Source: Curtobacterium sp. MR_MD2014
GTDB taxonomy: Bacteria > Actinomycetota > Actinomycetes > Actinomycetales > Microbacteriaceae
Assembly (NCBI RefSeq): GCF_000772085.1
Contig: NZ_CP009755.1
Location: 3,286,001 to 3,350,000, forward strand
Reading direction: 5' to 3'
Length of the DNA: 64,000 bases
Position numbers and translations under genes: made by a program. Positions 41,785 to 62,947 of this stretch are shown here, one piece after another (position 1 is the first letter of the stretch; each line of letters opens with the position of its first letter). Under the pieces are notes generated by a model that did not search any database, had not been told where the DNA came from, and saw nothing but the letters and a program-made list of their open reading frames with translations.

Positions 41785-41834
41785 ATCACGATCGGCCCGC
41801 TCGCCTCACGGCTCGGGCCGATTTTCTTGTCTCG
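41785..41834 (+). ncRNA. abiF-type hairpin RNA, copy 1
   Basis: Short structured RNA between the promoter and the Abi gene. A 9-bp stem (ATCGGCCCG 41791-41799 with CGGGCCGAT 41814-41822, 14-nt loop) is followed by TTTCTT and then GTCTC (41829-41833). The T-rich run after the stem makes it look like an intrinsic terminator, so a free RNA of about 45-50 nt could form. An abiF RNA motif is catalogued upstream of such genes, and Abi/HEPN toxins controlled by such RNAs have been reported. The copy at 62893-62947 shares stem position, 6-nt spacing and GTCTC. Confidence 0.65.
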
Positions 41835-41849
41835 GGGTGGGAGGACGAG

Positions 41850-42854
41850 GTGTCGTACGCGAAACCGTGGCTGTCGATCGACGAGCAGATCGCGTTGCTG
41901 CGCGAGCGGGGTCTGTCCATCGAGGACCACGACCGCGCGGCAGCAGCGCTCCGCGAGAGCGGCTACTACCGCCTGAGCGGCTACCTCCACCCGTTCCGTG
42001 TCTCCGGAACGGAGATCGACGAGAGCGGACGCCACACCACCGTCGTGCTCGAGCAGTACCGTCCCGGTGCCGACCTGGACGCAGCCTGCGAGCTGCTCAC
42101 CTTCGATCGGTCGCTGCGCCTGCTCGTCCTCGAGGCGGTCGAGCGCTTCGAGGTCGCCTTCCGGACGTGCCTTGCACACGTCCTCGGGGCGGTGTCTCCG
42201 TTCGCCCACGAAGATCCAGCGATCTTCAACACGGCCTTCTGCGCACCGCGGAACGGGGACGACCCGAGGAGCGAGCACGCTCGGTGGCTCGACCGTCTGG
42301 AGGACCGGAAGACCCGGTCGGACGAGTCGTTCGTCGCGCACTTCCGCGAACACTACGACGGTCGGATGCCCATCTGGGTGATCGTCGAGCTGCTCGAGCT
42401 CGGCCAGGTGTCACGCCTCTACGGAGGACTGCGGAACGACCTCGCGACGGAGGTCGCTGCATCCTTCGCCGTCCCGACGAAGCAGCTGATGCGGAGTTGG
42501 GTCGCCTCGGTCAACTACGTCCGCAACGTCGCGGCCCACCATTCGCGACTCTTCAACCGCAAGCTCGTCGCCGCACCGAAGCGGGCGAGCGCAGAGCAGG
42601 TCCCAGCGCTCGCACACCTCGTGGTCGGCCGGGCACCGAAACGCTTCGGCGTGTACGAGGTCCTGGCAGTCCTGGCGTACCTGCTCGATTCCGTGCCGTC
42701 GAACGTCGACTGGAAGGTCCGTACCGCAGAACTCCTGTCCGCGTTCCCGGCGGTCGACGGGATCGACGTCGGTTCGATGGGTCTCGTCCCCGCCTGGCTC
42801 GACGAGCCGATCTGGAGCCGACGCCTGAGGGAGGACGGTCCGGTCAGTCCCTGA
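41850..42854 (+). CDS. Abi-family (Abi_2/AbiF-like) HEPN protein
   Basis: 334-aa abortive-infection-type protein. The N-terminus KPWLSIDEQIALLRERGLSI and ALRESGYYRLSGYLHPFR is the Abi_2 signature. Two RxxxxH motifs of HEPN ribonucleases are present: R105-H110 (RTCLAH) and R225-H230 in NYVRNVAAHHSRLFNR. It probably cleaves RNA when released from control, limiting phage or plasmid spread. GTG at 41850 has GGGAGGACGAG just upstream. The hairpin RNA lies 16 nt before, and the gene looks slightly less GC-rich than its neighbours. Convergent overlap of 11 bp with the WYL gene. Confidence 0.88.
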   Translation: MSYAKPWLSIDEQIALLRERGLSIEDHDRAAAALRESGYYRLSGYLHPFRVSGTEIDESGRHTTVVLEQYRPGADLDAACELLTFDRSLRLLVLEAVERFEVAFRTCLAHVLGAVSPFAHEDPAIFNTAFCAPRNGDDPRSEHARWLDRLEDRKTRSDESFVAHFREHYDGRMPIWVIVELLELGQVSRLYGGLRNDLATEVAASFAVPTKQLMRSWVASVNYVRNVAAHHSRLFNRKLVAAPKRASAEQVPALAHLVVGRAPKRFGVYEVLAVLAYLLDSVPSNVDWKVRTAELLSAFPAVDGIDVGSMGLVPAWLDEPIWSRRLREDGPVSP

Positions 42855-43800
42855 ACGATCGGCGCAGTCGGGTGGCGAGCGCGTCGACAGCAGCACGCAG
42901 TTCCTCGGGCCCCTCGACCACGAACGGCACCGTCAGCCCGGCGATCGTGCCGGCGAGCCCGTCCCACGACCAGGACCCGAGCGTCAGCCGTCGACGGTCG
43001 TCGTCGGCATCCTCGAGCACGGCGTCCTCCGGCAGGAACGGGGCGACCCGCGCGGCGTCGGCAGCGGTCAGCGAGACCGACCCGGTGCACGGCCACGCGT
43101 CGTCGCGGTCGGACCCCTTGAAGCGGGCCGCCACGAAGGCTGCCACGTCCCCACCGGGTACGGGTCGCTGCACGAACGGCAGCCGCGTCCGCATCCGCGG
43201 GGTGATCCGGTCCACCCGGTAGGTCCGCCAGTCGTCGTGCTCGGGCTCCCACGCCAGCAGGTACCACCGACCGTGCCGGGCGACCACCGCGTGCGCTTCG
43301 ACCCTGCGGGGACGGTCGTCCGTGCCGTACCCGAACCGGAACACCTCGTGGCGCTGCACGGCCTCGCTGACGGCCACCAGCACGTCCGGATCGACCCGCT
43401 GGGCGGACGATCCCACGACGGCATCCACCAGGTCCACCCGGTTCCGGAGCCGTTCGGGCATGACCTGTCGCACCGTCGCGAGCGCGCGGGTGGCGGCCTC
43501 GGCGATGTCGGCACCCGATGCCGGCGCCACCGCGAGGGCGAGGGCGATCGCCACCGCCTGGTCGTCGTCGAACAGCAGCGGCGGCAGGTCCGATCCGGCG
43601 GCGAGTCGGTAGCCGCCGGCCGGACCGCGGACGGAGTCGATGCGGTAGCCGAGGTCCCGGAGGCGGTCGACGTCGCGGCGGAGGGTGCGCGGACTCACGG
43701 TCAGGCGACCGGCGAGCTCGTCGCCCGTCCACTCCCGGTGCACCTGCAGCAGGGAGAGCAGCGCGAGCATGCGCGAGGAGGGTCCGGACACGTCGTCCAT
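42844..43800 (-). CDS. WYL-domain transcriptional regulator
   Basis: 318-aa regulator: N-terminal HTH_11 (SRMLALLSLLQVHREWTGDELAGRLTVSPRTLRRDVDRLRDLGYRIDS) and a WYL domain (HGRWYLLAWEPEHDDWRTYRVDRI) with a C-terminal WCX extension. WYL proteins sense nucleic-acid or other ligands and often regulate stress or defence genes; this one sits between an Abi gene and a divergent VOC gene. ATG at 43798-43800 chosen; a GTG at 43819-43821 would add seven residues. Confidence 0.9.
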   Translation of the reverse strand: MDDVSGPSSRMLALLSLLQVHREWTGDELAGRLTVSPRTLRRDVDRLRDLGYRIDSVRGPAGGYRLAAGSDLPPLLFDDDQAVAIALALAVAPASGADIAEAATRALATVRQVMPERLRNRVDLVDAVVGSSAQRVDPDVLVAVSEAVQRHEVFRFGYGTDDRPRRVEAHAVVARHGRWYLLAWEPEHDDWRTYRVDRITPRMRTRLPFVQRPVPGGDVAAFVAARFKGSDRDDAWPCTGSVSLTAADAARVAPFLPEDAVLEDADDDRRRLTLGSWSWDGLAGTIAGLTVPFVVEGPEELRAAVDALATRLRRSFRD

Positions 43801-43853
43801 CCTCGTCGGAGAAGCGGTCACGATCTGACCGCAACGCTCGCGACACTCGATCC

Positions 43854-44273
43854 ATGAGCATCGAGACCACGACCCACCTCAACTTCGACGGACAGGCCCG
43901 CGAGGCCCTGGACCACTACGCATCCGCGTTCGGCGGCACCGTGACCGCCGCCACCTACGGCCAGATGGGCGCGTCCCAGGACCCCGCCTGGGCGGACCGC
44001 ATCGTGTTCGGTCAGGTCAACACCGAGGCCGGCTTCCGGATCATGGCGTTCGACGTCTGGCCGGACCAGCCGTACGACCAGGGCACGAACGCCTGCTACG
44101 TCTTCGTGCACGGCGACGACGCGGACGAGGTCACCCGGTACTGGGAGGCGCTGTCGGAGGGTGCCGAGGTGCGACAGCCGCTCGCGCCCTCGCCGTGGGC
44201 CCCGCTCGCCGGGCAGCTGCGCGACCGGTTCGGCGTCGTGTGGCAGTTCGACGTGGCGGTGCCGCAGGGCTGA
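43854..44273 (+). CDS. VOC/PhnB-like protein
   Basis: 139-aa vicinal-oxygen-chelate-fold protein of the PhnB/3-demethylubiquinone-like group: HLNFDGQAREALDHYASAFGG, VNTEAGFRIMAFD, YVFVHGDDADEVTRYWEALSEG and PWAPLAGQLRDRFGVVWQFDVA. The family includes metal-binding glyoxalase-type enzymes and resistance proteins; substrate unknown. Divergent from the WYL regulator (53-bp gap), so it is a likely target of it. Confidence 0.9.
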   Translation: MSIETTTHLNFDGQAREALDHYASAFGGTVTAATYGQMGASQDPAWADRIVFGQVNTEAGFRIMAFDVWPDQPYDQGTNACYVFVHGDDADEVTRYWEALSEGAEVRQPLAPSPWAPLAGQLRDRFGVVWQFDVAVPQG

Positions 44274-44285
44274 CACCCGACCCCG

Positions 44286-44340
44286 GCACGTGGACGGCCG
44301 ACGGCAGCGCCTCAGTGCTGCCTGGCGACCGTCCACGTGC
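44286..44340. repeat. Long inverted repeat at convergent gene ends
   Basis: GCACGTGGACGG and CCGTCCACGTGC enclose an inner GGCAGC/GCTGCC pair. It overlaps the last codons of the methyltransferase gene and faces the VOC stop, so it may serve as a terminator for the VOC gene. Confidence 0.5.
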
Positions 44341-45187
44341 TCACGGTCACCGCGGCCGTCACGGCCGTCGGCGCGAACACCCGGTCCGGATCGACGTGGT
44401 GGTGGCTCGGGCCCATGTGCACCACGTCGTGCACGTCCTCCGCGGACAGCTCCATCGTCCACGTGAGGTCCTCGGACCCCTGCAGCGCGAACGTCGGCTC
44501 GAGCGACTCCCGCAGCCGCCGCTCCTTCTCCGGGTCCACCGCGATGGTCGCCTCGGCGAGCTCCGCCAGGTGTCCGGTCCGTGGCGTCACGACGACGAGC
44601 ACGCCGTCCGGGTGGAGCACCCGCGCGTACTCCCGCTGGTTGCGCGGGGCGAAGACGTCCAGCACGACGGCCGCCGCGTCGTCGACGACCGGGAGGCGCT
44701 CGGTCACGTCCCCGACGACGGCGCCGGCCCGCGGGTGGACGCGTGCCGCCCGCCGGACGGCGACGGGTGACAGGTCCAGCGCGACCCCGAGGCGGGCAGC
44801 GACGGGGCCTGCCGGGGCCGAGCCGGGCCTCCCGGCCGACGCAGTCTCGTCCGGTCCGTCCGCGTCCAGCACGTGCGCGAGGTAGGTGCCGGGGCCGGAG
44901 CCGACGTCGAGGACGACGCCCGGGGCCTTCGTGGCGGCGACCACCGCGGCGAGCGCCCGCTCGACCGGTGCGTAGTGCCCCCGCCCGAGGAACCGGATCC
45001 GCGCGTCGACCATGTCCGGGGTGTCCGCGGTCAGGGCGCGGCGCTTTGCGGGCAGGAGCGTGAGGTGGCCCTGCTTCGCCTCGTCGAACCGGTGGCCGCC
45101 GGCGCAGCCGACCTGCCCGCCGTCGACACGGGCGAGGGGCTCGGCGCAGACGGGGCAGGCGAGCACGGGGAGCAGGTCGTCGCGCAC
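44312..45187 (-). CDS. RlmA-like 23S rRNA guanine-N1 methyltransferase
   Basis: 291-aa SAM-dependent methyltransferase. An N-terminal zinc ribbon (LACPVCAEPLARVDGGQVGCAGGHRFDEAKQGHLTLLP) is followed by VLDVGSGPGTYLAHVLDAD (SAM motif I), a short Pro/Ala insertion, DLSPVAVRRAARVHPRAGAVVGDV and VFAPRNQREYARVLHPDG, the RlmA/TlrB plan. It likely methylates a G in 23S rRNA hairpin 35 and could alter macrolide response. GTG at 45185-45187 follows a TACGCT box by 6 nt; divergent from the SDR gene. Confidence 0.88.
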   Translation of the reverse strand: MRDDLLPVLACPVCAEPLARVDGGQVGCAGGHRFDEAKQGHLTLLPAKRRALTADTPDMVDARIRFLGRGHYAPVERALAAVVAATKAPGVVLDVGSGPGTYLAHVLDADGPDETASAGRPGSAPAGPVAARLGVALDLSPVAVRRAARVHPRAGAVVGDVTERLPVVDDAAAVVLDVFAPRNQREYARVLHPDGVLVVVTPRTGHLAELAEATIAVDPEKERRLRESLEPTFALQGSEDLTWTMELSAEDVHDVVHMGPSHHHVDPDRVFAPTAVTAAVTVSTWTVARQH

Positions 45188-45193
45188 CGACCC

Positions 45194-45199
45194 AGCGTA
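45194..45199 (-). promoter_or_regulatory. -10 box TACGCT, leaderless rlmA-like gene
   Basis: TACGCT on the minus strand, 6 nt before GTG 45187. Confidence 0.5.
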
Positions 45200-45209
45200 C
45201 GGGCGTCGG

Positions 45210-45215
45210 TAGCCT
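45210..45215 (+). promoter_or_regulatory. -10 box TAGCCT, leaderless SDR gene
   Basis: TAGCCT 6 nt before ATG 45222. The two divergent start codons are only 34 bp apart and the two -10 boxes 10 bp apart. Confidence 0.5.
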
Positions 45216-45221
45216 GGCCCG

Positions 45222-45977
45222 ATGGCACTGGAGCAGCTCTTCGGCCTCGACGGACGCCGTGCACTGGTCACCGGGGGCAGCTCCGGCATCGGTCGGGCGA
45301 TCGCGCTCGCCCTCGCGGACGCGGGCGCCCACGTGCTGGTCGCGGCGCGCACGCGGGAGGCGATCGACGAGACCGTCGCGACGATCACCGCCGACGGCGG
45401 GTCGGCCGCCGGTGTCGTCGCGGACCTGTCGACCCGGGCGGGCGCCCACGCGCTCGCGGACGCCGTCGGCGAGGTGGACGTCCTCGTCAACTCGGCCGGC
45501 ATCAACCTGCGGCCGCCGATGCCGGACCTCGACGAGGGCACGTGGGACGCGACGATGGCCGTCAACCTCGACGCACCCTTCGTGCTCGGCCAGCGGCTCG
45601 CGCCCGGCATGGCCGCACGCGGGTACGGCCGGATCATCGGCATCAGTTCGCAGCAGGCCCACCGCCCCTTCGCCGCGAGCGGCGCGTACGGGGTGTCGAA
45701 GGCCGGCCTGGAGGCACTGGCACGCTCCCAGGCGGAGGCCTGGTCGGGCAGCGGGGTCACCTCGAACGTCCTGGTCCCCGGCTTCGTGCAGACCGCGCTC
45801 AACAGGCGACTGTCCGCCGACCCCGAGCGGGTCGCGGCGCTCGCCGCGCGCACGCTCGTCGGACGCAACGGCGAGCCGTCGGACTTCGCGGCCGTGGCGG
45901 TGTTCCTGGCCGGACCGGGGTCCGCGTACGTCACGGGCCAGTCGATCGCGGTCGACGGCGGCTTCTCGGTGCACTGA
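45222..45977 (+). CDS. Short-chain dehydrogenase/reductase
   Basis: 251-aa classical SDR, NAD(P)-dependent. TGGSSGIGRAIAL (residues 17-29), NSAGIN at about 89-94, catalytic Ser in GISSQQAHRPF, Tyr/Lys in YGVSKAG, and TGQSIAVDGGFSVH at the end. An Arg in AARTREAI suggests NADP preference. Reads like a gluconate 5-dehydrogenase/2-deoxygluconate-type SDR; substrate open. Confidence 0.92.
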   Translation: MALEQLFGLDGRRALVTGGSSGIGRAIALALADAGAHVLVAARTREAIDETVATITADGGSAAGVVADLSTRAGAHALADAVGEVDVLVNSAGINLRPPMPDLDEGTWDATMAVNLDAPFVLGQRLAPGMAARGYGRIIGISSQQAHRPFAASGAYGVSKAGLEALARSQAEAWSGSGVTSNVLVPGFVQTALNRRLSADPERVAALAARTLVGRNGEPSDFAAVAVFLAGPGSAYVTGQSIAVDGGFSVH

Positions 45978-46061
45978 CCCCGTGCACTGAGCCCCGTGCA
46001 CCGACCTCCGCGCCCTGACCGCAGTGCGGCGGGCCGACGGTGGAAGCCGAGGTCTGCTCGG

Positions 46062-46067
46062 TAGCGT
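46062..46067 (+). promoter_or_regulatory. -10 box TAGCGT, leaderless gene
   Basis: TAGCGT 6 nt before ATG 46074. Confidence 0.5.
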
Positions 46068-46073
46068 CGGTGC

Positions 46074-46685
46074 ATGGCCGTCATCCACCGCGCAGAACTC
46101 CGACCGTCCAAGGCCGAGGCCCTCGCCGCCTGGCTGCCAGCGCAGCCGTGGAGCGGCCTCACCGCCGGTGCCGCCGTCGAGATCGTCACCCGCTTCCGGT
46201 TCGACGACCCCGAGGGCGAGGTCGGTGTCGAGGAGATCGTCGTGCGGACGCCCGAGGGACGGCTCCTGCACACGCCGCTGACCTACCGCGGCGCTCCGCT
46301 CGACGGCGCCCGGGGCTCCCTGGTGTGCGAGATGCACCACTCCGTGCTCGGGCAGCGCTGGGTGTACGACGCCGTCGCGGATCCGGTGTACGCCGACGTC
46401 CTGCGTCGTGCGATCGCCACCGGCGGGCACGAGGCGGAGCTCGAGCGCGCCGACGGCTCCGGACGGTTCGACAAGGAGGGCACGGCGGTCGGCAGCGGGT
46501 CGGCGCCGGACTCCCCCACGGTGACGTCGGCCACGGCCAGCACCGACGGGACCGAGACGACGGTGCGCACCGACCACGGCGACCTCGTCGTGCTGCGGGT
46601 GATCGGGCTGCCCGTGCCGGACGGCGAGACACTGACCGCGACCTGGCGCGACCGCTCGGCCGTCGTCGCGGTCCTGCCCGCCTGA
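46074..46685 (+). CDS. Maltokinase N-terminal cap-like domain protein
   Basis: 203-aa protein matching the stand-alone maltokinase-cap (CG0192-type) family: AVIHRAELRPSKAEALAAWLPAQPW, VTRFRFDDPEGEVGVEEIVVRT, LLHTPLTYRGAPLDGA, MHHSVLGQRWVYDAVADPVYADVL. The C-terminal 70 residues are a Ser/Thr/Gly-rich linker and a final beta segment. No kinase domain is fused or adjacent, so its role is unknown. Confidence 0.82.
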   Translation: MAVIHRAELRPSKAEALAAWLPAQPWSGLTAGAAVEIVTRFRFDDPEGEVGVEEIVVRTPEGRLLHTPLTYRGAPLDGARGSLVCEMHHSVLGQRWVYDAVADPVYADVLRRAIATGGHEAELERADGSGRFDKEGTAVGSGSAPDSPTVTSATASTDGTETTVRTDHGDLVVLRVIGLPVPDGETLTATWRDRSAVVAVLPA

Positions 46686-46758
46686 CGGACCCGGTCGCGG
46701 CCGCTCCGCGACGTGCCCCGTCCGGGGGACTCGGAGCTTCCGGGCGTCTGATTGCAAT

Positions 46759-47418
46759 GTGCAACTTCAAGGCGGGACCGACTGGGTGGGGCTGCTCCCC
46801 GCCTCGGTGGTCGCCGCCGCTGCCGACCACGACCTGAGCGGCCCCCTCGCCGACGAGGAACGCGCGGCGATCGCCCGTGCCGTCCCGGCGCGGCGTGCCG
46901 AGTTCCGGACCGGCCGCCTGCTCGCCCGCCGCGCCCTGACGGCGATCGGCACCCCGGTGACGGCACTGCCCGTGGGTCGGAGCGGGGCTCCCCGCTGGCC
47001 CGAGGGCGTGGTCGGCACGATCACCCACTGCCCCGGCCTGCGCGCCTGCGCCGTCGCCCGGCGCGACGACCACGCCGGCATCGGCATCGATGCCACGCCG
47101 GCACGTCCCCTGCCGCCGGGAGTGCTCCGACGCATCGCGGACGTCACGGACGACCGTGTCGCGCGGGGTCTCACCGCACTCCGGCGAACCGGGGTTGAGA
47201 GTCCGGACAGCGTCCTGCTCGCCGCGACCGAGGCCGTCGCCAAGGCCCGCTCGGCCGCGCACGACGGCTGGTTCGGCATCGACGGTGCCCACGTGGAGCT
47301 GCGCCCGGACGGGACCTTCACGGCGAGCGCGCGTCGCGGCCCGGCGTTCGCGGCGACGGGACGGTGGGCAGTGGACCGGGGGACGGCGCGTGCGGGCATC
47401 GTGCTCGCCGCGCGCTGA
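46759..47418 (+). CDS. 4'-phosphopantetheinyl transferase (PptT/EntD-like), divergent
   Basis: 219-aa enzyme expected to load the phosphopantetheine arm onto carrier domains. Family layout is present: RRAEFRTGRLLARRAL, GAPRWPEGVVGTITHCPGLRACAVAR (CoA site), GIGIDATP and TEAVAKAR. Two usual residues differ: the Glu/Asp after the metal Asp111 is Thr113, and KE in the K-E-x3-K motif is TE. It lies 47 bp before the carboxylic acid reductase gene, whose carrier domain needs this activity. GTG 46759 sits in a TTGCA-ATG-TGCAA palindrome (46752-46764); no ribosome site is evident. Confidence 0.85.
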   Translation: MQLQGGTDWVGLLPASVVAAAADHDLSGPLADEERAAIARAVPARRAEFRTGRLLARRALTAIGTPVTALPVGRSGAPRWPEGVVGTITHCPGLRACAVARRDDHAGIGIDATPARPLPPGVLRRIADVTDDRVARGLTALRRTGVESPDSVLLAATEAVAKARSAAHDGWFGIDGAHVELRPDGTFTASARRGPAFAATGRWAVDRGTARAGIVLAAR

Positions 47419-47465
47419 GAGGCCGCGCGCGGGGGCGCGTCGGACGAACGAGGAAGGGAACCACC

Positions 47466-50400
47466 ATGGTGCAGCAGGACGAGGACACCTCCGTCGAGGC
47501 GGTGTTCGACCGGTACGCCGACCGAACGGCGATCCGACAGCGGGACGGCGAGGTCGTCACCGACACGAGCTTCCGGGAGCTCCGGGACCGTGCGCGGGCC
47601 CTCGCGGCGGTGCTCGGCGAGTCCGTGGCCCCGGGTGACCGGATCGCGGTGCTCGGTCCGCCGAGCGCCGACGTCGTGACCCTCGAGCTCGCGTGCTCGG
47701 TGCTCGGCGCGGTGAGCGTGCCGCTGCAGACCAGCGCGGCCGTCGAGCAGCTCCGTGCGATCGTCGACGAGACGACGCCGGTGTGGCTGGGCGTCACCGC
47801 CGACCAGGCCGCGACGGCCCGGGCGGTCACCGACGCGGCCGCCGCCGAGGTGCACACCGTCCTGCTCGACACGACGGGTGCGGCCGGCGCGGCGACCGGG
47901 GCCGAGGGCACCGACGGTGCGGCGGCGCTGCCGACGCTCGCCGACCTCGTGGCACGGGGCCGCGACCTGCCGCAGCCGACCCCGTGGCGACCGGCGCCCG
48001 ACGAGGACCCGCTCGCCCTGCTGCTGTACACCTCGGGCAGCACCGGGACCCCGAAGGGCGCGATGTACACGCGGTCCATGGTCGAGCGGCTCTGGCACGC
48101 ACTCCCGCCGGACCACCCGGACGCCGTGACCGTCGGCTACGCCTACCTCCCGCTGAGCCACCTGACCGGTCGCGCGGCGCTGCTCGCCACGCTCGGCCGC
48201 GGCGGCACCGTGGCGCTCGCGACCTCGACCGACCTGTCGGCCCTGTTCGAGGACCTGCGGGTCTACGCACCGACCGAGCTCGTGCTCGTCCCGCGGATCG
48301 CCGAGATGGTCCGCCAGGAGGGCGCCCGCGAGGAGCAGCGCCGGCTCGCGGCCGGAGCCACCGACGCCCCGGCCGTGCGTGCTCAGGTGCAGGACGACCT
48401 CCGGACACGTGCCTTCGGTGGTCGCGTCGGGCAGGCCGTCTGCGCCAGCGCCCCGCTCACGCCCGAGCTCCGCACGTACCTCGAGGAGTGCCTCGGCGTC
48501 CCGCTGCACGACCTGTACGGCTCGACCGAGGCGGGCAGCATCCTGCGCGACGGCGTGGTGCAGCAGCCACCGGTCACCGAGCACAAGCTGGTGGACGTCC
48601 CCGAGCTCGGGTACCGCACCACCGACCGACCGCACCCGCGCGGCGAACTGCTCGTGAAGAGCACCGCGGTGATCCCCGGGTACTTCCGCCGCCCGGACGT
48701 CACCGCCGCGGTGTTCGACGAGGACGGGTTCTACCGGACCGGCGACGTGATGGCGCAGACCGGTCCGGACACGTACGAGTACCTCGACCGCCGGAACAAC
48801 GTCATCAAGCTCTCGCAGGGCGAGTTCGTCGCGGTCTCGGCCCTCGAGGCGACCTTCGGTGGGACGCCGGAGGTCCGGCAGATCGCCCTGCACGGGGACA
48901 GCAGGCACGCGTTCCTCGTCGCGGTCGTCGTGCCGGTCGACCCGGAGGCCACGGAGGGCGACCTGCTCGCCGCCCTCCAGCGCACCGCCCGCGCCCACGG
49001 GCTCGCGCCGTACGAGGTGCCCCGAGCGATCGTCGTCGAACCGGACCCCTTCACGGTCGACAACGGCATGCTCTCCGATGCCCGCAAGCTCCTCCGCCCC
49101 CGGGTCACCGCCCGCTACGGGGACCGGTTCGCGGCGCTCTACGGCGCGGTCGCCGAGCAGCAGAGCGGCACCCTCGTCGCGACCCTGCGCGAGCACGTGG
49201 GTGACGAACCGACCGTCGACACCGTCGTCCGTGCCGCCCGTGACCTGCTCGGTGCCGAGGTCAGCACCGAGACCGCCTCGGCCGCCCGGTTCTCGGACCT
49301 CGGCGGTGACTCGCTGTCGGCCCTGACGTTCTCCGGGGTCCTCGAGGACGTCTTCGAGACCGAGGTGCCCGTCGGTGTCATCACCGACCCGACGAACGAC
49401 CTCGCGGCCGTGGCCGCGTACGTCGAGCGCTCGGCCGCCGACGACCGGCCGACCATCGCCCGCGTGCACGGCGCCGACCCGACGGTGCTGCGAGCGTCGG
49501 ACCTGCGGGTGGACCGCCTGCTCGGTGCGGTCCCCGCGCCGGTGGCACGCGCACCCCGCCCCACCGCGGACGGGCCGCGCACCGTCCTGCTCACCGGCGC
49601 GAACGGCTACCTCGGCCGCTTCACCGCGATGGACTGGCTCGAGCGGCTCGCACCGGTCGGCGGCACGCTGGTCTGCGTCGTGCGCGGGTCGGACGACGCC
49701 GCTGCCCGCCGTCGACTGGACGCGGCCTTCGCGGCCGATCCCGCGTTCGCCGACCGGTTCGCCGAGCTCTCGGGGTCGCTCGAGGTGGTCGCCGGGGACG
49801 TCAGCGAGCACCTGCTCGGCCTCGAGGAACCGCGGTGGGAGGACCTCGCCGCGCGGGTCGACCTCGTCACGCACGCCGCCGCCCTGGTGAACCACGTCCT
49901 GCCGTACACCGCGCTGTTCGGGCCAAACGTCGTCGGCACCGCCGAGGTCGTCCGGCTCGCGATCGCCGCCGGGAGCGTGCCCGTCACCTTCGTGTCGAGC
50001 GTCGCCGTCGCCGGTGGAGCCCGCCCGAGCGCGACCGAGGACGTCGCCCCCGACGCCCCCGCGGCACTCGACGAGCGAGCGGACCTCCGGTCGACGATCC
50101 CCGAGTGGACGATCGCCGACGAGTACGCGAACGGGTACGGCGCGAGCAAGTGGGCGAGCGAGGTGCTGCTCCGCGAGGCGCACGAGCAGCACGGCGTCCC
50201 CGTCGCGGTGTTCCGCTCCGACATGGTGCTGGCGCACCCGCGCTGGCGCGGCCAGGTGAACCTGCCCGACGTGTTCACCCGTCTGGTCTGGAGCGTGCTC
50301 GCGACCGGGCTGGCACCCGTGTCCTTCGTGCAGCGGACCCCGGACGGCCGGGTGCAGCGCTCGCACTACGACGGCCTGCCCGCCGACTTCACGGCCGCCG

Positions 50401-50819: not shown

Positions 50820-50825
50820 GCACCG

Positions 50826-52087: not shown

Positions 52088-52112
52088 TGACGCACGTCGT
52101 GCCCCCAGGCTG

Positions 52113-54439: not shown

Positions 54440-54446
54440 GCGGGTG

Positions 54447-54452
54447 AACCTA
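54447..54452 (-). promoter_or_regulatory. -10 box TAGGTT, leaderless kinase gene
   Basis: TAGGTT on the minus strand, 7 nt before ATG 54439; overlaps the 3' end of the PAP2 gene. Confidence 0.45.
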
Positions 54453-55334
54453 CCGTGACGACCTGACCGGGCGTGCCGGTCCGCGGCCGCGCACGACCGG
54501 GTCGGCACCCCGGTGGAGGGCGGTCAGGTACAGCCGGTGCGCCGTGATCACGAGCGCCAGCCACGCCAGACCGAGGGCCCACGCGGCGAGCACGTCCGTC
54601 GTCCAGTGGTGGCCCAGGAACACCCGCGAGACGCCGATCGACAGCACGAAGAGCGTGCCGATGACGATCGTCCACACCCGGGTGACCGTGCGTGACTGCC
54701 GCAGGATGAGCAGGTACACGATCGTGCCGACGACGACCGTGGCGTTGAGCGTGTGGCCGGACGGGAACGACGGCGAGTGCTCGTACGGCGGCACCGCGTC
54801 GGACAGCGGCGGTCGGGCACGGCCGATCAGGTCCTTGCCTGCGATGGTCATGAGGAGCGAGCCGCCGCTCGCCGCGACGAGCAGCACGAGCGGGGTCCAG
54901 GCGCGGCGCTGCACCGTGAAGCCGATCAGGAAGCAGACCGCGACGATCGGCATCCCGATCGTCCCGGCGATGTCGGTCCACCACGTGACCGCCTGGTCGG
55001 CGAACGGCGAGCGCAGGGTGAGCATCCAGTCGAGGACGGGGCGGTCGAGCACCGCGACGTCGTCGGACGCCCGCACGGCGTCGTACACCTCCGATGCCGC
55101 CCAGGTCGCGGTCGCGGCGATGCCGACACCGACGGCCAGCGTCAGGACGAGCAGGGGGAGGGCGCCGTAGCGACGGCCGAGTGCCGCCCAGCCATCGGCG
55201 ACCGTGTGGCCGGCCCGGGACCGCCACGTCGTGAGGTCGAGGTCGCCGACGCGCCGGTCCTCGACGACCGCCGCCTGCTCCGCACGGTCGACCCGACCGG
55301 CAGCCGAGGGGTCCTCGTCGTGGTGTCGCTCCAT
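54450..55334 (-). CDS. PAP2-family membrane phosphatase
   Basis: 294-aa integral membrane phosphatase (undecaprenyl-diphosphate or lipid phosphate type). Three-part active site: KDLIGRARP, PSFPSGHT and SRVFLGHHWTTDVLAA. About six hydrophobic segments after a charged 60-residue N-terminal region. ATG at 55332-55334. Upstream of the kinase on the same strand. May recycle the lipid carrier for cell-wall synthesis; substrate not proven. Confidence 0.92.
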   Translation of the reverse strand: MERHHDEDPSAAGRVDRAEQAAVVEDRRVGDLDLTTWRSRAGHTVADGWAALGRRYGALPLLVLTLAVGVGIAATATWAASEVYDAVRASDDVAVLDRPVLDWMLTLRSPFADQAVTWWTDIAGTIGMPIVAVCFLIGFTVQRRAWTPLVLLVAASGGSLLMTIAGKDLIGRARPPLSDAVPPYEHSPSFPSGHTLNATVVVGTIVYLLILRQSRTVTRVWTIVIGTLFVLSIGVSRVFLGHHWTTDVLAAWALGLAWLALVITAHRLYLTALHRGADPVVRGRGPARPVRSSR

Positions 55335-55374
55335 CGACCCACCCTGCCCGTCCCAGGCTGCGAGCGCGCACGCG

Positions 55375-55470
55375 CCGGCCCGGACGCAGTCCTCACCGCG
55401 GGCGAGCACCCGCCCGTACCGGCCCGGACGCAGTCCTCACGGCGGGCGAGCACCCGCACGCGCCGGCCCG
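55375..55470. repeat. 44-bp tandem repeat, 2.2 copies
   Basis: Units begin CCGGCCCGGACGCAGTCCTC at 55375 and 55419, with a partial third at 55463. Lies between the polymerase stop and the PAP2 start. Confidence 0.8.
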
Positions 55471-55472
55471 GC

Positions 55473-57158: not shown

Positions 57159-57184
57159 CCGACGATCATCCTCCTTCCCGCGGG

Positions 57185-57244
57185 ACGCACCGTCGGCGGG
57201 TGCTCGCAGCGGTACCGCGGTGCGAGGTGTCGCCGGGGTCGCGT
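57185..57244. repeat. 60-bp palindromic repeat, family B copy 3
   Basis: Same 60-bp length as 10059 and 16334, more diverged: outer ACGCACCGTCGGCG/CGCCGG...GCGT, inner CTCGCA/TGCGAG. Between two co-directional minus-strand genes. Confidence 0.75.
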
Positions 57245-57259
57245 CGTGCGAGGGAGGGC

Positions 57260-57508
57260 TCAGTCGGCGGGGTGGGGGTCCTGCGTCGCGTCGGTCCGGG
57301 GGTCGGTGCCGTCGGCGTCCCCGGGGCGGACGGCCGCGGAGTCCGCGACGTCGATGCGCACGTCCCCGTCCTCGACGCGGGAGACCTCGACGCGCGGGTC
57401 GGCGTCGTGCTCGTCCGACCCGGACATCCTGCGGAGGGTGTCCTGTCGGCGTTCCTCGAAGGACATGTCGACGCCGTCGCCGAGGTGGTCGTGGTCCGTG
57501 TCGCTCAT
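57260..57508 (-). CDS. Small acidic protein, unknown
   Basis: 82 aa, very rich in Asp and Arg (SDTDHDHLGDGVDMSFEERR, ...PRVEVSRVEDGDVRIDVADS), no membrane segment, probably disordered. ATG 57508 follows a TACGGT box by 7 nt. No function assignable. Confidence 0.65.
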   Translation of the reverse strand: MSDTDHDHLGDGVDMSFEERRQDTLRRMSGSDEHDADPRVEVSRVEDGDVRIDVADSAAVRPGDADGTDPRTDATQDPHPAD

Positions 57509-57515
57509 GCGTCCG

Positions 57516-57521
57516 ACCGTA
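57516..57521 (-). promoter_or_regulatory. -10 box TACGGT, leaderless small gene
   Basis: TACGGT on the minus strand, 7 nt before ATG 57508. Confidence 0.45.
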
Positions 57522-57599
57522 CCCGCGGCGGCCGGAGCGCCTCCCGGCAGTGCACGTGAGCAGCGTTCAGCGATTTGGTGCGCGAATCGGACAGACGCC

Positions 57600-57625
57600 A
57601 TGGTGGAGTGATGGAGGTGGAGTGA
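57600..57625 (+). other. Two minimal ORFs chained before a small gene
   Basis: ATG-GTG-GAG-TGA (57600-57611) and ATG-GAG-GTG-GAG-TGA (57611-57625) run head to tail through shared TGATG into the next ATG. The same bases also provide GGAGG-type ribosome sites. Confidence 0.45.
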
Positions 57626-57846
57626 TGGAGACGGAGCGCGCACGAGCACCACGGTGGCGACCGGTCCCCGCCGACGACGTCCCGATCCACGCGGTGGTCC
57701 GCTACCGCGACCGCGGGCGACTCGTCGCCGGGACGGCGGTGGACGTCCTCGACACTCCGGGGCGTCCCGCACTCATCGTCCGCACCGACGACGGGCAGCA
57801 CCACGTCGCACCGCGCGCGATCCCGCTGGAGATGCAGGTCCACTGA
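57625..57846 (+). CDS. Small protein, SH3-like, unknown
   Basis: 73 aa: ETERARAPRWRPVPADDVPI, VVRYRDRGRLVAGTAVDVLD, RPALIVRTDDGQHHVAPRAI. The run of short beta segments looks like a small barrel domain. ATG 57625 is preceded by GGAGGTGGAGTG. No function assignable. Confidence 0.65.
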   Translation: METERARAPRWRPVPADDVPIHAVVRYRDRGRLVAGTAVDVLDTPGRPALIVRTDDGQHHVAPRAIPLEMQVH

Positions 57847-57901
57847 CCGGCCCGGGCGGTCGTACCGGGGCCGTCGCCACGACGCAGCGCGCTGCGGCCG
57901 C

Positions 57902-59275
57902 TCAGCAGAGGGGGACGTTGACCGCCAGTCCGCCCATCGCGGTCTCCTTGTACTTCGTCGACATGTCCGCACCGGTCTGCCGCATCGTCTCGACGACCTG
58001 GTCGAGGGACACGTGGTGCACACCGTCCCCGCGCAGCGCCATCCGGGCCGCGTTGATCGCCTTGTTCGCCGCGATCGCGTTCCGCTCGATGCAGGGGATC
58101 TGCACGAGGCCGCCGATCGGGTCGCAGGTCAGCCCGAGGTTGTGCTCCATCGCGATCTCGGCGGCGTTCTCGACCTGTTCGGGGGTCCCACCGAGGACCT
58201 CGGCCAACCCGGCCGCCGCCATCGACGCGGCGGAGCCGACCTCGCCCTGGCAGCCGACCTCGGCGCCCGAGATCGACGCCCGCTCCTTGTAGATCGAGCC
58301 GATGGCCCCGGCCGTGAGCAGGAAGCGGACCACGGCGTCGTCGCGGTCCTCCGGGAGGACCTCGGAGACGTAGGTCAGGGCGTAGTACAGCACCGCGGGG
58401 ATGATCCCGGCGGCACCGTTCGTGGGGGCGGTGACGACCCGGCCACCCGTGGCGTTCTCCTCGTTGACCGCCATCGCGGTGAGGTTCACCCACTCCATCG
58501 CGAAGAGCGGGTCGTGGTGCGGGTCGTCGCGGGTGAGCTGCTCGTGCCAGTTCGCCGCGCGACGCCGGACCGTCAGGCCGCCGGGCAGCGTGCCGGTGCG
58601 GCGGATGCTGCGGTCGACGCTCTCGCGCATGACGTCGTGCACGTGCAGGAGTCCGGCGCGGACCTCGGCACCGGTCCGTGTCGCGGTCTCGTTCGCCATC
58701 GCGACGCCGCTGACGGGCAGGCCGGTCGCGGCGCACGCGGCGAGGAGTTCGGCGCCGCTCGAGAACGGGTGCGGGACGGCGTCGTCGACGGGGATCGCGG
58801 CCTCGGCCACGGCACCCTCGGTGTCGCTCGTGATGAACCCGCCACCGATCGAGTAGTAGGTCTCCTCGGCGAGGACCGCCCCCGAGGCACCGGTCGCCCG
58901 CAGCCGCATCGCGTTCGGGTGGCGGGGCAGCATGGTGAGCGGGTGCAGCACGATGTCGGCCTGGCGGAACGGCACCGTCGCCCCGCCCGCGAGCCGCAGC
59001 ACACCGGTGCGTTCGAGGTCGTCCAGGGCCGCTGCCATCGCGTCCGGGTCGACCGTCTCGGGGTCGGAGCCCATCAGCCCGGCGAGCACCGCACCGAGCG
59101 TGCCGTGTCCCTGCCCGGTCGAGGCGAGCGAGCCGTACAGGTGGACGTCGAGCCCGGTCACGGGGGCGTCGGCGAGCCCGGCCGCGAAGGCCGCGCCGGC
59201 ACGCATGGGCCCGACGGTGTGGGAACTCGACGGGCCGATCCCGACGCTGAACAGATCGAAGACGGAGACCGGCAT
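57902..59275 (-). CDS. sdaA: L-serine ammonia-lyase (serine dehydratase), single-chain
   Basis: 457-aa iron-sulfur enzyme that turns L-serine into pyruvate and ammonia. Beta domain at the N-terminus: [24 protein letters not shown]; alpha domain: [40 protein letters not shown] and [26 protein letters not shown], whose Cys residues bind the 4Fe-4S cluster. Ends GLAVNVPLC, the tail that sits in the active site. ATG 59275 follows a TAGTGT box by 6 nt. Confidence 0.97.
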
Positions 59276-59281
59276 CCCGCC

Positions 59282-59287
59282 ACACTA
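59282..59287 (-). promoter_or_regulatory. -10 box TAGTGT, leaderless sdaA
   Basis: TAGTGT on the minus strand, 6 nt before ATG 59275. Confidence 0.5.
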
Positions 59288-59289
59288 AC

Positions 59290-59301
59290 CCGTCCGGACG
59301 G
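59290..59301. promoter_or_regulatory. 12-bp perfect palindrome CCGTCCGGACGG
   Basis: Between divergent sdaA and aroE-like genes, next to the sdaA -10 box. Possible operator; could also be chance in GC-rich DNA. Confidence 0.3.
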
Positions 59302-59362
59302 CACTGCTGTCGGGTACCGGGAGTGGACCGCTCCATCGGCACGGGCGTGGGAGACTCGTGCC

Positions 59363-60181
59363 ATGCCCATCCTCCACAAGGACATGCAGGTCTGCATCTC
59401 GCTCGCGGCCCGACCGAGCAACATCGGCACGCGCTTCCACAACTTCCTCTACGACGAGCTCGGGCTGGACTTCGTCTACAAGGCGTTCACCACGACCGAC
59501 CTGCCCGGCGCGGTCACCGGGATCCGCGCGCTCGGCATCCGGGGCTGCTCGGTGTCGATGCCCTTCAAGGAGGCGATCATCCCCCTCGTCGACGTGGTCG
59601 AGGAGTCCGCGGCCGCCATCCGGTCGATCAACACCGTGGTGAACGACGACGGTGTGCTCACCGCGTCGAACACCGACTACGAAGCCGTCGCGTCCCTGCT
59701 CCGCACGCACGATGTCGACCCGACGGCCCGCGTGGTGCTCCGTGGCTCCGGCGGGATGGCCAAGGCGGTCACGGCGGCGTTCCGCGGTGCGGGCTTCGAG
59801 CAGCTCACCGTCGTCGCGCGCAACGCGGAGACCGGTCCTGCCCTGGCCGAGCAGTACGGCTTCGACTGGGTCGCGAGCGTGCAGGAGGCGCCCGAGGCCG
59901 ACGTCCTGGTCAACGTCACCCCGCTCGGCATGCGCGGTGCGGACGAGGACGCCCTCGCCTTCGCGCAGGACCGTGTCGAGGCCGCGTCGACCGTCTTCGA
60001 CGTGGTCGCGTTCCCCGCCGAGACCCCGCTGGTCCGCGCCGGTCGCGCCGCGGGTGCGCACGTGATCACCGGCGCCGAGGTCATCGCACTGCAGGCAGCC
60101 CGCCAGTTCGAGCGGTACACGGGCGTCGCCCTGACGAACGACCAGGTGCGTCGAGCGAGCGAGTTCAGTCGCGCGGAGTGA
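59363..60181 (+). CDS. Shikimate 5-dehydrogenase-like protein
   Basis: 272-aa NADP-binding protein of the AroE family. SLAARPSNIGTRFHNFLYDELGLDFVYKAF, GCSVSMPFKEAI (catalytic Lys), SINTVVNDDGVLTASNTDYEA (catalytic Asp), LRGSGGMAKAVTAAF (dinucleotide loop) and NVTPLGMRG. The usual SPxLHN opening is changed to RPSNIGTRFHN, as in the AroE-like paralogues, so the true substrate may differ from shikimate. ATG 59363. Divergent from sdaA. Confidence 0.9.
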   Translation: MPILHKDMQVCISLAARPSNIGTRFHNFLYDELGLDFVYKAFTTTDLPGAVTGIRALGIRGCSVSMPFKEAIIPLVDVVEESAAAIRSINTVVNDDGVLTASNTDYEAVASLLRTHDVDPTARVVLRGSGGMAKAVTAAFRGAGFEQLTVVARNAETGPALAEQYGFDWVASVQEAPEADVLVNVTPLGMRGADEDALAFAQDRVEAASTVFDVVAFPAETPLVRAGRAAGAHVITGAEVIALQAARQFERYTGVALTNDQVRRASEFSRAE

Positions 60182-60195
60182 CCAGGTGGCGGCAC

Positions 60196-60227
60196 GGAGG
60201 CTCGTGGCGGTGCCGCCACGAGCCTCC
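60196..60227. terminator. Hairpin terminator (GGAGGCTCGTGGCGG stem)
   Basis: 15-bp stem with a minimal loop between the convergent aroE-like (+) and SRPBCC (-) genes. Confidence 0.75.
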
Positions 60228-60234
60228 AGACCGT

Positions 60235-60678
60235 CTACTGGGCGCCCGCGCGCCCCTCCGCGACCCAGCGGAGCCGCCGGATGCTCTCGTTGTTGCGGAT
60301 CCAGATGCCGGGCTGCGCGATGAACCCGGGCACGAGTGATCCGGGACCCCGGACGGGGTTCTCGCGGAGCGTCACCCGGCTCCCCCGCGGGTGCGGTTCC
60401 ACCTCGACCTCGACCCGGGCCTCGCCGACCGGCCAGCCCTTCGCCTGGATGACGAGCCGCCGGGGCTCGTCGACCTCGAGCGAGATCGTCGTGTCGTTGA
60501 TCAGGAACGGCCAGATGCCGAACGAGTGGTGCAGCTCCGTACCGACGGCGGGCCACCCCGGGTCCTGACCGCGCATGCGCGAGGCGCCGACCACCCAGGT
60601 CGGGTAGAGCCAGCCGTCCCGGAGCACGTCGAAGACGGCCTCCGGGCTGCAGTGCACGATGCGGACGTTCTTCGCCAT
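60235..60678 (-). CDS. SRPBCC (polyketide cyclase/dehydrase-like) protein
   Basis: 147-aa helix-grip protein: VRIVHCSPEAVFDVLRDGWLYPTWVVGA at the N-terminus, VEVEVEPHPRGSRVTLRENPVRGPG and IRNNESIRRLRWVAEG at the C-terminus. It binds a hydrophobic ligand, identity unknown. ATG at 60676-60678 is 3 bp past the stop of the oxidoreductase gene, so the two form an operon. Confidence 0.88.
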   Translation of the reverse strand: MAKNVRIVHCSPEAVFDVLRDGWLYPTWVVGASRMRGQDPGWPAVGTELHHSFGIWPFLINDTTISLEVDEPRRLVIQAKGWPVGEARVEVEVEPHPRGSRVTLRENPVRGPGSLVPGFIAQPGIWIRNNESIRRLRWVAEGRAGAQ

Positions 60679-60681
60679 GGT

Positions 60682-62127
60682 TCAGTCCTCCGGTGCGAGG
60701 TCGACGTGCTCGGACAGGCCGAAGGTGTGCCGCAGGGCGCTGCGGGCCGCGTGCCAGCCCGCCATGCCGTGCACACCCGGGCCGGGCGCGGACGCCTCCG
60801 AGCACAGGTACATGCCGCCGCCCATCCGCCACGGATCGGACGACAGGACGGGCCGCTTGACGAGCTGCCAGAAGCTCGCGGCCCCGGCGGCGATGTCGCC
60901 GCCGACGTAGTTCGGGTTGTACTCGCCCATCTGGACGGCCGTGCGGCTGCTCGACTGCAGGACGGTGTCGCGGAACCCGGGCGCGAAGCGCTCGACCTGC
61001 CGGACGATCGCGTCGGTCGGGTCGACGTCGGAGCCCGCGGGCACGTGTGCGTACGCCCAGAAGACGTGCTTGCCGCGCGGGGCCCGGCTCGGGTCGACCA
61101 CGGTCGGCTCGCTCCCGAGGACGTACGGGCGTTCGGCGTGCCGACCCTGTGCCACGGCGTGCTCGGCCTCGGCGATCTCCGCACGGGTGCCGCCGATGTG
61201 CACGGTGCCGGCCTTCCGCAGCTCGGTGTTGGTCCACGGCACCGGGTCGGACAGCGCGAAGTCGACCTTCGCCGCCGCGTTGCCGAACCGGAAGCGGCGC
61301 AGCGCCCCGCGCTTCGGGGTGGGGATCTGCTTCCCGGCGATGTGCAGCATGCCCGGGACGCTCGTGTCGAAGAGGACGGCCTTCGCCGGGGTCAGGTCGG
61401 CGAGGGACCGGACCTCGCGCCCGGTCTCGATGGTGCCGCCGTGGGCGACGAGGTCGGCGGCGAGCGCGTCGACGATCGCCTGGCTGCCCCCGATCGGCAC
61501 GGGCCAACCGCGGGCGTGGGCGTAGGAGCCGAGCGACAGCGCGGCCGCGGCGGTCGACAGGGACGGCATGTGCTGGATCGAGTGCGCCGCGACGCCGGAG
61601 ACCATCGCCGGTGCGACCTCGTCGCGGAACCGGGCGTTCCAGGCGGCGCTGCCCTGCTCGAGGGCGCGGAGACCGAACCGCAGGACGGTGAGCGGGTGTC
61701 GCGGGACGTGCAGCAGCGCGTCGGTGGCGAAGTCCGCGACCTGGTCGGCGCTGCCGGACAGGGGCGCCATGAGGTTCCGGAAGGCGCGGCCGTCGATGCC
61801 CAGGCCCTCGGCGGTGCGCTCGAGGTCGCGGTAGGCGATGCCGGCGCGGCCTCGGTCGAGGGGGTGGCCGTACTGCACCTCGGGCAGCCGGAGCTCGATG
61901 CGGTCCTCCATGCGGAAGAGCCGGAAGAACTCGGACTGCAGCGCCATGGGGTGCACCGCGGAGCAGACGTCGTGGTGGAACCCGGGCAGCGTCAGCTGTG
62001 CCGTGCGGGCACCACCGCCGATCGTGTCGTTCCGCTCGACGACCTCGACCGACAGCCCGGCCCGCGCGAGCGTCACCGCCGCCGCGAGTCCGTTCGGTCC
62101 GGCACCGACGACCACCGCATCAACCAT
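60682..62127 (-). CDS. FAD-dependent oxidoreductase, phytoene desaturase-like
   Basis: 481-aa flavoprotein. N-terminal dinucleotide motif DAVVVGAGPNGLAAAVTLARAGLSVEVVERNDTIGGGARTAQL and C-terminal GGMYLCSEASAPGPGVHGMAGWHAARSAL, typical of the CrtI/NAD(P)-FAD oxidoreductase family (COG1233). No other carotenoid gene is nearby, so carotenoid desaturation is not implied. ATG 62127 follows a TAGGCT box by 7 nt. Operon with the SRPBCC gene. Confidence 0.92.
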   Translation of the reverse strand: MVDAVVVGAGPNGLAAAVTLARAGLSVEVVERNDTIGGGARTAQLTLPGFHHDVCSAVHPMALQSEFFRLFRMEDRIELRLPEVQYGHPLDRGRAGIAYRDLERTAEGLGIDGRAFRNLMAPLSGSADQVADFATDALLHVPRHPLTVLRFGLRALEQGSAAWNARFRDEVAPAMVSGVAAHSIQHMPSLSTAAAALSLGSYAHARGWPVPIGGSQAIVDALAADLVAHGGTIETGREVRSLADLTPAKAVLFDTSVPGMLHIAGKQIPTPKRGALRRFRFGNAAAKVDFALSDPVPWTNTELRKAGTVHIGGTRAEIAEAEHAVAQGRHAERPYVLGSEPTVVDPSRAPRGKHVFWAYAHVPAGSDVDPTDAIVRQVERFAPGFRDTVLQSSSRTAVQMGEYNPNYVGGDIAAGAASFWQLVKRPVLSSDPWRMGGGMYLCSEASAPGPGVHGMAGWHAARSALRHTFGLSEHVDLAPED

Positions 62128-62134
62128 GTGCCCG

Positions 62135-62140
62135 AGCCTA
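62135..62140 (-). promoter_or_regulatory. -10 box TAGGCT, leaderless oxidoreductase gene
   Basis: TAGGCT on the minus strand, 7 nt before ATG 62127. Confidence 0.5.
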
Positions 62141-62163
62141 GGGACGCGCGCCCCCGCGGGCGG

Positions 62164-62880
62164 TCAGATGACCGTCCGACCCGCCTGCAGCGCCTCGTCG
62201 CGACGATCGAGCACGGCGTCGATGCGACTCGACGCGACGATGAGTCGCTCGGCGTCCCGGCTCACGGCCCCCGCGATCCTGGCGATGTCGTCACGGATGT
62301 GCCCCAGCGGGGCGGTGTGGATCGGCTCGTGGTGCGCGAGGCGGTTGCGGAACCGGCGGACGTCGTCGAGCAAGCGGTGCAGACCCTTGCGGCGGAGCGT
62401 GCCGCGGTGCGGGAACGCCGTCGTCAGGCGCGGTTGCCAGAGCACGGTCTCGTAGCTGAGGGTCGGGTGGCGAGGCACCCCGGCGTCGGTCAACCCGACC
62501 CAGAACCCGAAGCTCGTCGCGGCGACGACCTGGTCGGCGGTCGGTCGGGCGAAGCCTCGTCGCATCAGCGTGTCCGTGGCACCGTCGACGGCGCGGCGCT
62601 CTCGCGGCATGAGGTGCACCGCTTCGTCGTTCCACCAGTCGTCGTTCCGTCCAGCACGCAGGGCGTCGTGCATCGCGTTCCGCACGGCGACCTCGAGCAC
62701 GGCGATCGGACCCCAGAACGCGGCGGTCATCTCGATGTTCCAGGCGTAGAGCCGGAGAGCGCCAGCTCGATCACCGTCGCACGCGGCGAGGTAGGGGCAC
62801 AGACGGGCAGCGCTGAAGAGGCGCGGGAGGCCCGCGAGTGCGGCGATGTCCAGCGCATCGACGGCTGCCCGACCGGTCAC
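62164..62880 (-). CDS. Abi-like HEPN protein
   Basis: 238-aa abortive-infection-type protein. Residues 19-75 (PRLFSAARLCPYLAACDGDR, ALRLYAWNIEMTAAFWGPIAVLEVAVRNAMHDAL), SFGFWVGL, LWQPRLTTAFP, and the HEPN motif R178-H183 in RFRNRLAHHEPIH match Abi-like proteins. An N-terminal RNAMH echoes the first motif. Probably an RNase toxin. GTG at 62878-62880 has GGGGGAG upstream and follows a hairpin RNA laid out like that of the other Abi gene, although the two proteins are only distantly related. Confidence 0.85.
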   Translation of the reverse strand: MTGRAAVDALDIAALAGLPRLFSAARLCPYLAACDGDRAGALRLYAWNIEMTAAFWGPIAVLEVAVRNAMHDALRAGRNDDWWNDEAVHLMPRERRAVDGATDTLMRRGFARPTADQVVAATSFGFWVGLTDAGVPRHPTLSYETVLWQPRLTTAFPHRGTLRRKGLHRLLDDVRRFRNRLAHHEPIHTAPLGHIRDDIARIAGAVSRDAERLIVASSRIDAVLDRRDEALQAGRTVI

Positions 62881-62892
62881 ATCAACTCCCCC

Positions 62893-62947
62893 GGAGACGA
62901 CGATCGCCCCAGGAGTCCGGCGGTGCCGAATGGTCCTGGGGCGTTAC
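62893..62947 (-). ncRNA. abiF-type hairpin RNA, copy 2
   Basis: Minus-strand RNA between promoter and Abi-like gene. A 10-bp stem (62905-62914 with 62934-62943, CGCCCCAGGA/TCCTGGGGCG, 19-nt loop) is followed after 6 nt by GTCTC (62894-62898), the same layout as copy 1 at 41785. No T-tract after the stem. Expected start near 62947. Confidence 0.55.

Follow-up and report, generated by a model that had tools for sequence, protein, structure and literature searches.

The 64,000-nucleotide stretch of the Curtobacterium sp. MR_MD2014 genome analysed here (NZ_CP009755.1, positions 3,286,001 to 3,350,000; hereafter the window, to which all coordinates refer) contains two genes for HEPN proteins that are related to abortive-infection (Abi) proteins, and in both cases a hairpin lies between a predicted promoter and the gene. 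We refer to each set of promoter, leader and gene as a module. The features of the two modules are:

41750..41778, + strand: promoter of module 1, predicted by consensus (-35 TTGCCC 41750-41755, 17-bp spacer, -10 TATCCT 41773-41778)
41786..41828, + strand: leader 1 hairpin, class A (stem 41791-41799/41814-41822, 9 bp; model R1, 74.2 bits)
41829..41833, + strand: GTCTC of leader 1, 6 nt past the stem, not conserved
41850..42854, + strand: module 1 gene, Abi_2/AbiD HEPN protein of 334 aa, GTG start
62954..62982, - strand: promoter of module 2, predicted by consensus (-35 TTGATG 62982-62977, 17-bp spacer, -10 TACGGT 62959-62954)
62900..62946, - strand: leader 2 hairpin, class PA (conserved stem 62942-62934/62914-62906; model R2, 73.6 bits)
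62894..62898, - strand: GTCTC of leader 2, 6 nt past the stem, not conserved
62164..62880, - strand: module 2 gene, PD-T4-5-like HEPN protein of 238 aa, GTG start, RNRLAH motif

Re-reading the sequence bore out the layout given in a preliminary description of this DNA: both promoters have 17-bp spacers, the GTG starts lie 71 nt (module 1, 41850) and 73 nt (module 2, 62880) from the -10 element, the stems of 9 and 10 bp begin 10-12 nt past the -10, and each GTCTC lies 6 nt past its stem. In leader 1 the stem starts 12 nt after the -10, encloses an internal loop CTC/T and an inner GCC/GGC pairing and is followed by TTTCTT, a terminator-like U run. In leader 2 the full stem of 10 bp (62943-62934 with 62914-62905) starts 10 nt after the -10 and encloses an internal loop CCA/C and an inner hairpin; nine of its pairs are conserved, and many relatives are without the tenth. 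Both hairpins follow one plan, i.e. an outer stem, a 3-nt x 1-nt internal loop and an inner hairpin. CGAT, which the preliminary description had aligned between the leaders, does occur in both; in leader 1 it is the last part of the stem arm, in leader 2 it extends across the end of the stem, and many class-PA relatives are without it.

The module 1 protein matches Pfam Abi_2 at 1.1e-46 (160 bits against a cut-off of 25.6), the PADLOC profile AbiD at 4.5e-59 and the PDB entry 8vz6_A at 4.9e-32. The module 2 protein reaches 14.5 bits against Pfam Abi_2, under the cut-off of 25.6, and is matched to AbiF through its predicted fold and not by sequence at the Pfam level; the PADLOC profile PD-T4-5 matches it distantly (9.8e-14, residues 41-188) and ranks first for this protein and for the eight relatives checked. 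With Foldseek alone, 8vz6 was not recovered at E<=0.001, and a fold of the Abi_2 protein predicted without an alignment was unusable (pLDDT 40). Both proteins are related, by sequence or by predicted fold, to the same AbiF structure (8vz6).

The promoter-hairpin unit in relatives

Relatives of both proteins were sought in the genus (66 genomes) and in the family (299 genomes), with loci taken from the best matches only. For gene 2, a further set of relatives was taken from named records, being the best 80 of a longer list; they come from Curtobacterium, Clavibacter, Nocardioides, Actinomyces, Frankia, Streptomyces, alpha- and gammaproteobacteria and others. Eleven other Abi_2 proteins (L063-L073) with at least 47% identity over at least 260 residues, a set that leaves aside short Abi_2 fragments of similar identity, all have a hairpin of class A.

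In class-A leaders the TANNNT -10 element and the stem are 12 nt apart in 19 of 21 cases and 13 nt apart in the other two. Of 23 class-PA leaders, 21 have a gap of 11 or 12 nt before the conserved stem, and the other two have no TANNNT. All 21 class-A leaders have TTTCT directly after the stem. The stem-to-start distance and the GTG start vary among relatives of both leaders, and the stem-to-start values are to be read as a range only because some start codons, that of leader 2 among them, are wrongly assigned. GTCTC is present in 3 of 21 class-A and 2 of 23 class-PA leaders, which rules it out as a conserved element; its presence in both window leaders is a coincidence, and it does not mark a shared RNA family as the preliminary description had held. 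That description had proposed to judge the resemblance of the two leaders by whether orthologues share the spacing or GTCTC: GTCTC is rare in them, and the -10-to-stem gap is kept. What relatives conserve is this gap together with the hairpin, and the constancy of the gap indicates that promoter and hairpin form one unit. Judged from usual -10-to-start distances, transcription probably starts about 5 nt before the stem.

Folded alone, each hairpin beat 200 of 200 dinucleotide shuffles (z -3.88 for leader 1 and -4.29 for leader 2). Folds that include the ribosome site were weaker, with 30 of 200 shuffles equally good for leader 1 (z -1.05) and 6 of 200 for leader 2 (z -2.14). Covariation, a check suggested by the preliminary description, was analysed on the leaders of relatives and revealed compensatory changes in classes A, PA and B. 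The leaders in alignments A2-A4 were chosen by patterns that were written after reading them and that fix parts of both stem arms, thereby favouring paired rows; A2 contains all 15 distinct pattern matches, A4 all 11, and A3 13 of 15 (L009 and L012 left out). Class A (A2) is almost invariant, with 12 pairs that are 100% paired and a single compensatory pair, at which 6 of 15 rows have A-U in place of G-C; class-A covariation therefore depends on that pair alone. Five pairs with double changes were found in class PA (A3; 98.3% of cells paired) and four in class B (A4), which belongs to more distant Abi_2 proteins; in alignment A7 covariation was weak, with two pairs, a count matched in 115 of 500 shuffles. 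Further pair types were no more frequent than in shuffles in A2, A3, A4 and A7. Controls in which the register was slid had a covariation score under that of the true register in five of five alignments. In a crude control for perfect stems, 24 of 80 leaders compared with 1 of 80 control windows had such a stem at p<=0.02, and 39 compared with 3 at p<=0.05. Alignment A1 contains 15 of 30 loci, and A8 the window protein plus 29 of the 80 relatives (L170, L185, L186, L193 and L232 left out).

Hairpin classes and protein sub-lineages

Within the window, R1 matches leader 1 only and R2 leader 2 only. A third class, with a CAGAGGC core, was recognised by pattern in 33 of the 80 relatives of gene 2. 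In the 419,530 bases of these 80 loci model R3 had 42 matches at E<=0.01, 14 of these rows having trained R3, and R2 had 10 matches at E<=1e-6; together they cover 52 of the 80 leaders, all on the sense strand and just upstream of the gene. A combined alignment (A5) of the GCAGAGGC class with 29 of 33 rows was dropped and split into A6 and A7 because two sub-classes differ by one column of register; A6 and A7 together hold 32 of the 33 CAGAGGC-core pattern matches (L179 left out).

Mapped on a tree of 132 of 134 proteins, built by a quick method and with two proteins under 120 aa excluded, 103 leaders fall into nine hairpin classes that require 10 changes; the minimum possible is 8, the shuffled mean is 52.2, and a number as low was found in none of 200 shuffles. 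The class labels come from our own patterns, and L061 and L187 fit two of these, of which the first was kept, which may inflate the changes. The low number of changes argues that the RNA is inherited together with the protein sub-lineage, and on the sequence evidence such lineage-locked hairpins would speak for cognate pairing of RNA and protein. At least four modules of this sort, each with a different hairpin class, are present in the source genome: two are in the window, and outside it class B precedes an Abi_2 gene at 1885 kb and class PB a PD-T4-5-like gene at 132.5 kb. A CCCCGG/CCGGGG outer stem is common to several classes, so that a remote, very old common origin of the hairpins is possible and several of the nine classes may be divergent forms of one old hairpin.

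Occurrence of RNA and toxin gene

Within the genus, R2 has 14 matches of at least 54 bits, 12 of which precede a PD-T4-5-like gene (some of them broken); the other two precede a gene missing most of its middle (L296) and no recognisable remnant (L299). R1 has 14 matches of at least 56 bits, 13 of them before Abi_2 genes and the remaining one (L321) before a frame without a match to the Abi_2 profile. Seen from the protein side, a gene-2 type protein (at least 46% identity) is present in 13 genomes of the genus, 12 of which have the RNA, and in the other (G058) it consists of residues 115-237 only; all 13 Abi_2 matches of class-A length (597-621 nt) have the RNA. In the family (249 genomes), the expected gene follows 11 of 16 R1 matches of at least 45 bits and 9 of 11 R2 matches of at least 52 bits, and the rest have no recognisable gene; these cut-offs are score gaps chosen after seeing the lists. 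None of 20 weaker family matches (13 and 7) lies before a recognisable toxin gene. RNA is found without toxin, yet no full-length toxin is found without RNA. This pattern is expected of a toxin-antitoxin pair, though the numbers are small.

The orphan leaders (L296 at 1500-1800, from G007; L299 from G032; L321 from G047; L123, L131, L134-L136, L157 and L158) are conserved hairpin RNAs whose toxin gene is deleted or unrecognisable, that of L321 now standing before another frame. Possibly, they are retained antitoxins.

Discussion

In Clostridioides difficile, RCd22 lies between the promoter and abiF, has the abiF motif from +9 onwards and stops at a terminator; it binds its toxin directly and thereby neutralises it, both in cis and in trans (PMC12373285). 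AbiFr likewise neutralises PbAbiF by direct binding (PMC12737573). Compared with AbiF-AbiFr/RCd22 (PbAbiF 8vz6, RF03085), the window modules are alike in having a HEPN protein of the Abi_2/AbiD/F fold, a structured RNA between promoter and gene and, in module 1, a terminator-like U run; they differ in that there is no match to RF03085 and a single hairpin of other sequence, and module 2 differs additionally in that its protein is under the Pfam Abi_2 cut-off. On account of this anatomy we take both modules as pairs of an RNA antitoxin and a HEPN RNase, and we consider it probable that each locus is a toxin-antitoxin (abortive-infection) module of the AbiF kind, made up of an RNA and a protein, with the hairpin RNA as antitoxin. 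By the same analogy module 1 would be an actinobacterial member of this kind with another RNA, and module 2 a further branch.

In this model, (i) the promoter would yield a short RNA with the hairpin at its 5' end, (ii) the hairpin would bind and silence the HEPN RNase encoded directly downstream, (iii) only part of the transcripts would extend into the toxin gene, which in module 1 is probably due to termination of transcription at the stem and U run, and (iv) phage infection would disturb the supply of RNA, thereby freeing the RNase and halting the cell. Of this model, the analysis shows the hairpins, their covariation, their anchoring to the promoter, their lineage locking and the similarity of the proteins in sequence or fold; we infer the transcript ends, the binding and neutralisation, the termination ratio and the trigger.

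Several observations weigh against this model. The Rfam family abiF (RF03085) has no match in the window at gathering, nor at E up to 10 on leader 1, and the module 1 RNA is therefore not assigned to RF03085; RCd22 has two motifs whereas each window module has one hairpin. Leader 2 and class PA are without a U run directly 3' of the stem, the covarying-pair count of class A (A2) is matched in 399 of 500 shuffles, and 29 of the 132 leaders, including those of two plasmid genes (L285, L289), are without a class. L286, an E. coli PD-T4-5-like plasmid gene and the best PD-T4-5 profile match of eight, has no evident class hairpin; R3 had 0 matches in 296 genomes of the phylum, an empty answer that is uninformative; and the orphan RNAs could be mere leftovers. 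Rfam as a whole had no match in the window at gathering, none on leader 2 and, on leader 1, seven weak matches all far under gathering scores; in the relatives' loci that were scanned no leader was matched (L052 and L053 included), and one TPP riboswitch was found elsewhere, in L198.

Alternatively, the hairpins could be cis-acting only, as attenuators or translation switches that are perhaps bound by the toxin or a phage protein, with no neutralisation in trans. The invariable TTTCT of class A fits this alternative, as does AbiD1 of Lactococcus lactis, which like the window modules combines an AbiD-type protein with a structured 5' UTR, forms a short terminated transcript and differs in that its leader reportedly acts as a switch of translation that a phage protein opens (PMC12373285). 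Nevertheless, we regard it as doubtful: sequence in the loop and internal loop is conserved beyond the needs of a terminator and is lineage-specific, leader 2 has no U run directly 3' of its stem, and the RNAs remain where the toxin gene has been lost.

The toxin-antitoxin model also finds a parallel in the type III systems ToxIN/AbiQ, in which an RNA antitoxin lies upstream of an RNase toxin and a terminator sets their ratio (PMC12373285). The ToxIN/AbiQ antitoxin is a tandem-repeat RNA, whereas the window has no repeat of either hairpin, R1 and R2 each matching it once above 20 bits. The toxins of these systems presumably have a non-HEPN fold, unlike the window proteins.

For module 2 the first-ranking profile, PD-T4-5, leads to an E. 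coli plasmid defence gene that is toxin-antitoxin-like, abortive and a distant relative of AbiF/D (Vassallo 2022, PMC9519451); abortive phage defence has been shown for the E. coli gene only. The excerpts of Vassallo 2022 (PMC9519451) mention neither an antitoxin nor an RNA for PD-T4-5, and no RNA partner was found in the literature searched, whose coverage was partial, or in the excerpts of PMC10952713. Neither PD-T4-5 nor any word beginning with Actinom occurs in the main text of PMC12373285, and RF03085 is the only RNA mentioned for AbiD/F in the excerpts of a Science 2024 paper (PMC12165695).

The preliminary description had proposed one common RNA family for both proteins, raising the question of cross-control between the two RNAs. 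The same plan, including the 3x1 internal loop of both window hairpins, and the match of both proteins to the same structure would agree with this, but R1 and R2 each miss the other leader, GTCTC is unconserved, and the classes track protein sub-lineages (10 changes versus 52 in shuffles), each sub-lineage having its own hairpin classes. A common family is rejected at the level of sequence and, as an explanation, has become very improbable; what stands of the proposal is a shared structural plan, a covarying RNA whose distance from the promoter is fixed, and the relation of both proteins to AbiF. We suggest that the leaders are alike because both proteins of the AbiD/F fold keep the plan promoter-hairpin-toxin, and not because they share one RNA. 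A reading of the stems as DNA operators, or as plain terminators that belong to upstream genes, is hardly credible: the stems are palindromic and many weak R1 and R2 matches resemble plain terminators, but they lie just downstream of a predicted promoter at a fixed distance, the inner hairpin covaries, and most strong matches are on the sense strand upstream of HEPN genes.

The several lineage-specific kinds of hairpin RNA suggest built-in antidotes that travel with each toxin family. We lean, with considerable reserve, towards the view that PD-T4-5-like proteins are a large multi-phylum family of HEPN toxins with RNA antitoxins, in which at least nine sub-lineage-locked hairpin classes replace one another, and that, taken together with AbiF, RNA antitoxins are ancestral to the whole fold from which Cas13 arose; AbiF and its RNA have been reported as the ancestor of Cas13 (PMC12737573). 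Given the lineage-locked RNA classes across the family, an RNA in PD-T4-5's own leader would be its missing antitoxin. If this holds for the PD-T4-5 branch, which falls under the Abi_2 cut-off, RNA control would be the rule of this HEPN fold, protein-RNA pairs could be compared side by side, and the restraint of PD-T4-5 could be reduced to a simple plasmid test. The covariance models provide a means of finding such genes via their RNA.

Additional observations

An inverted repeat, GGTAC-TTGAT-GTACC at 62973-62987 (- strand), overlaps the -35 element of module 2 and is present, often imperfectly, upstream of its relatives L004-L006 and L010; it looks like a putative repressor site added to the RNA control. 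The upstream flanks of module 2 (L003-L012) are similar across several genomes of the genus, pointing to a seemingly fixed chromosomal locus at which the module has been gained and lost with no obvious island.

Other Abi_2 genes of the genus (L048, L050, L052-L057, L059) have leaders in which a GC stem encloses a core resembling CCAAGGCTCGAGC...GCTTCCTCAAA, and several of the leaders of L052-L059 have an extra second hairpin or a conserved CTGTAGTTGCTGCCGG stretch. Class PE, with GCCCCGGCGCG...CGTCCGGGGC, comprises L101-L103, L106, L107, L110 and L115; judged by eye, its inner hairpin differs by paired changes, and the distance to the start is longer. In Streptomyces (L188, L204, L215-L217, L224, L230) the CAGAGGC-class RNA is immediately preceded by the end of a perfect 13-bp stem, probably a terminator belonging to the gene before it, which suggests that this RNA is an insulated unit.

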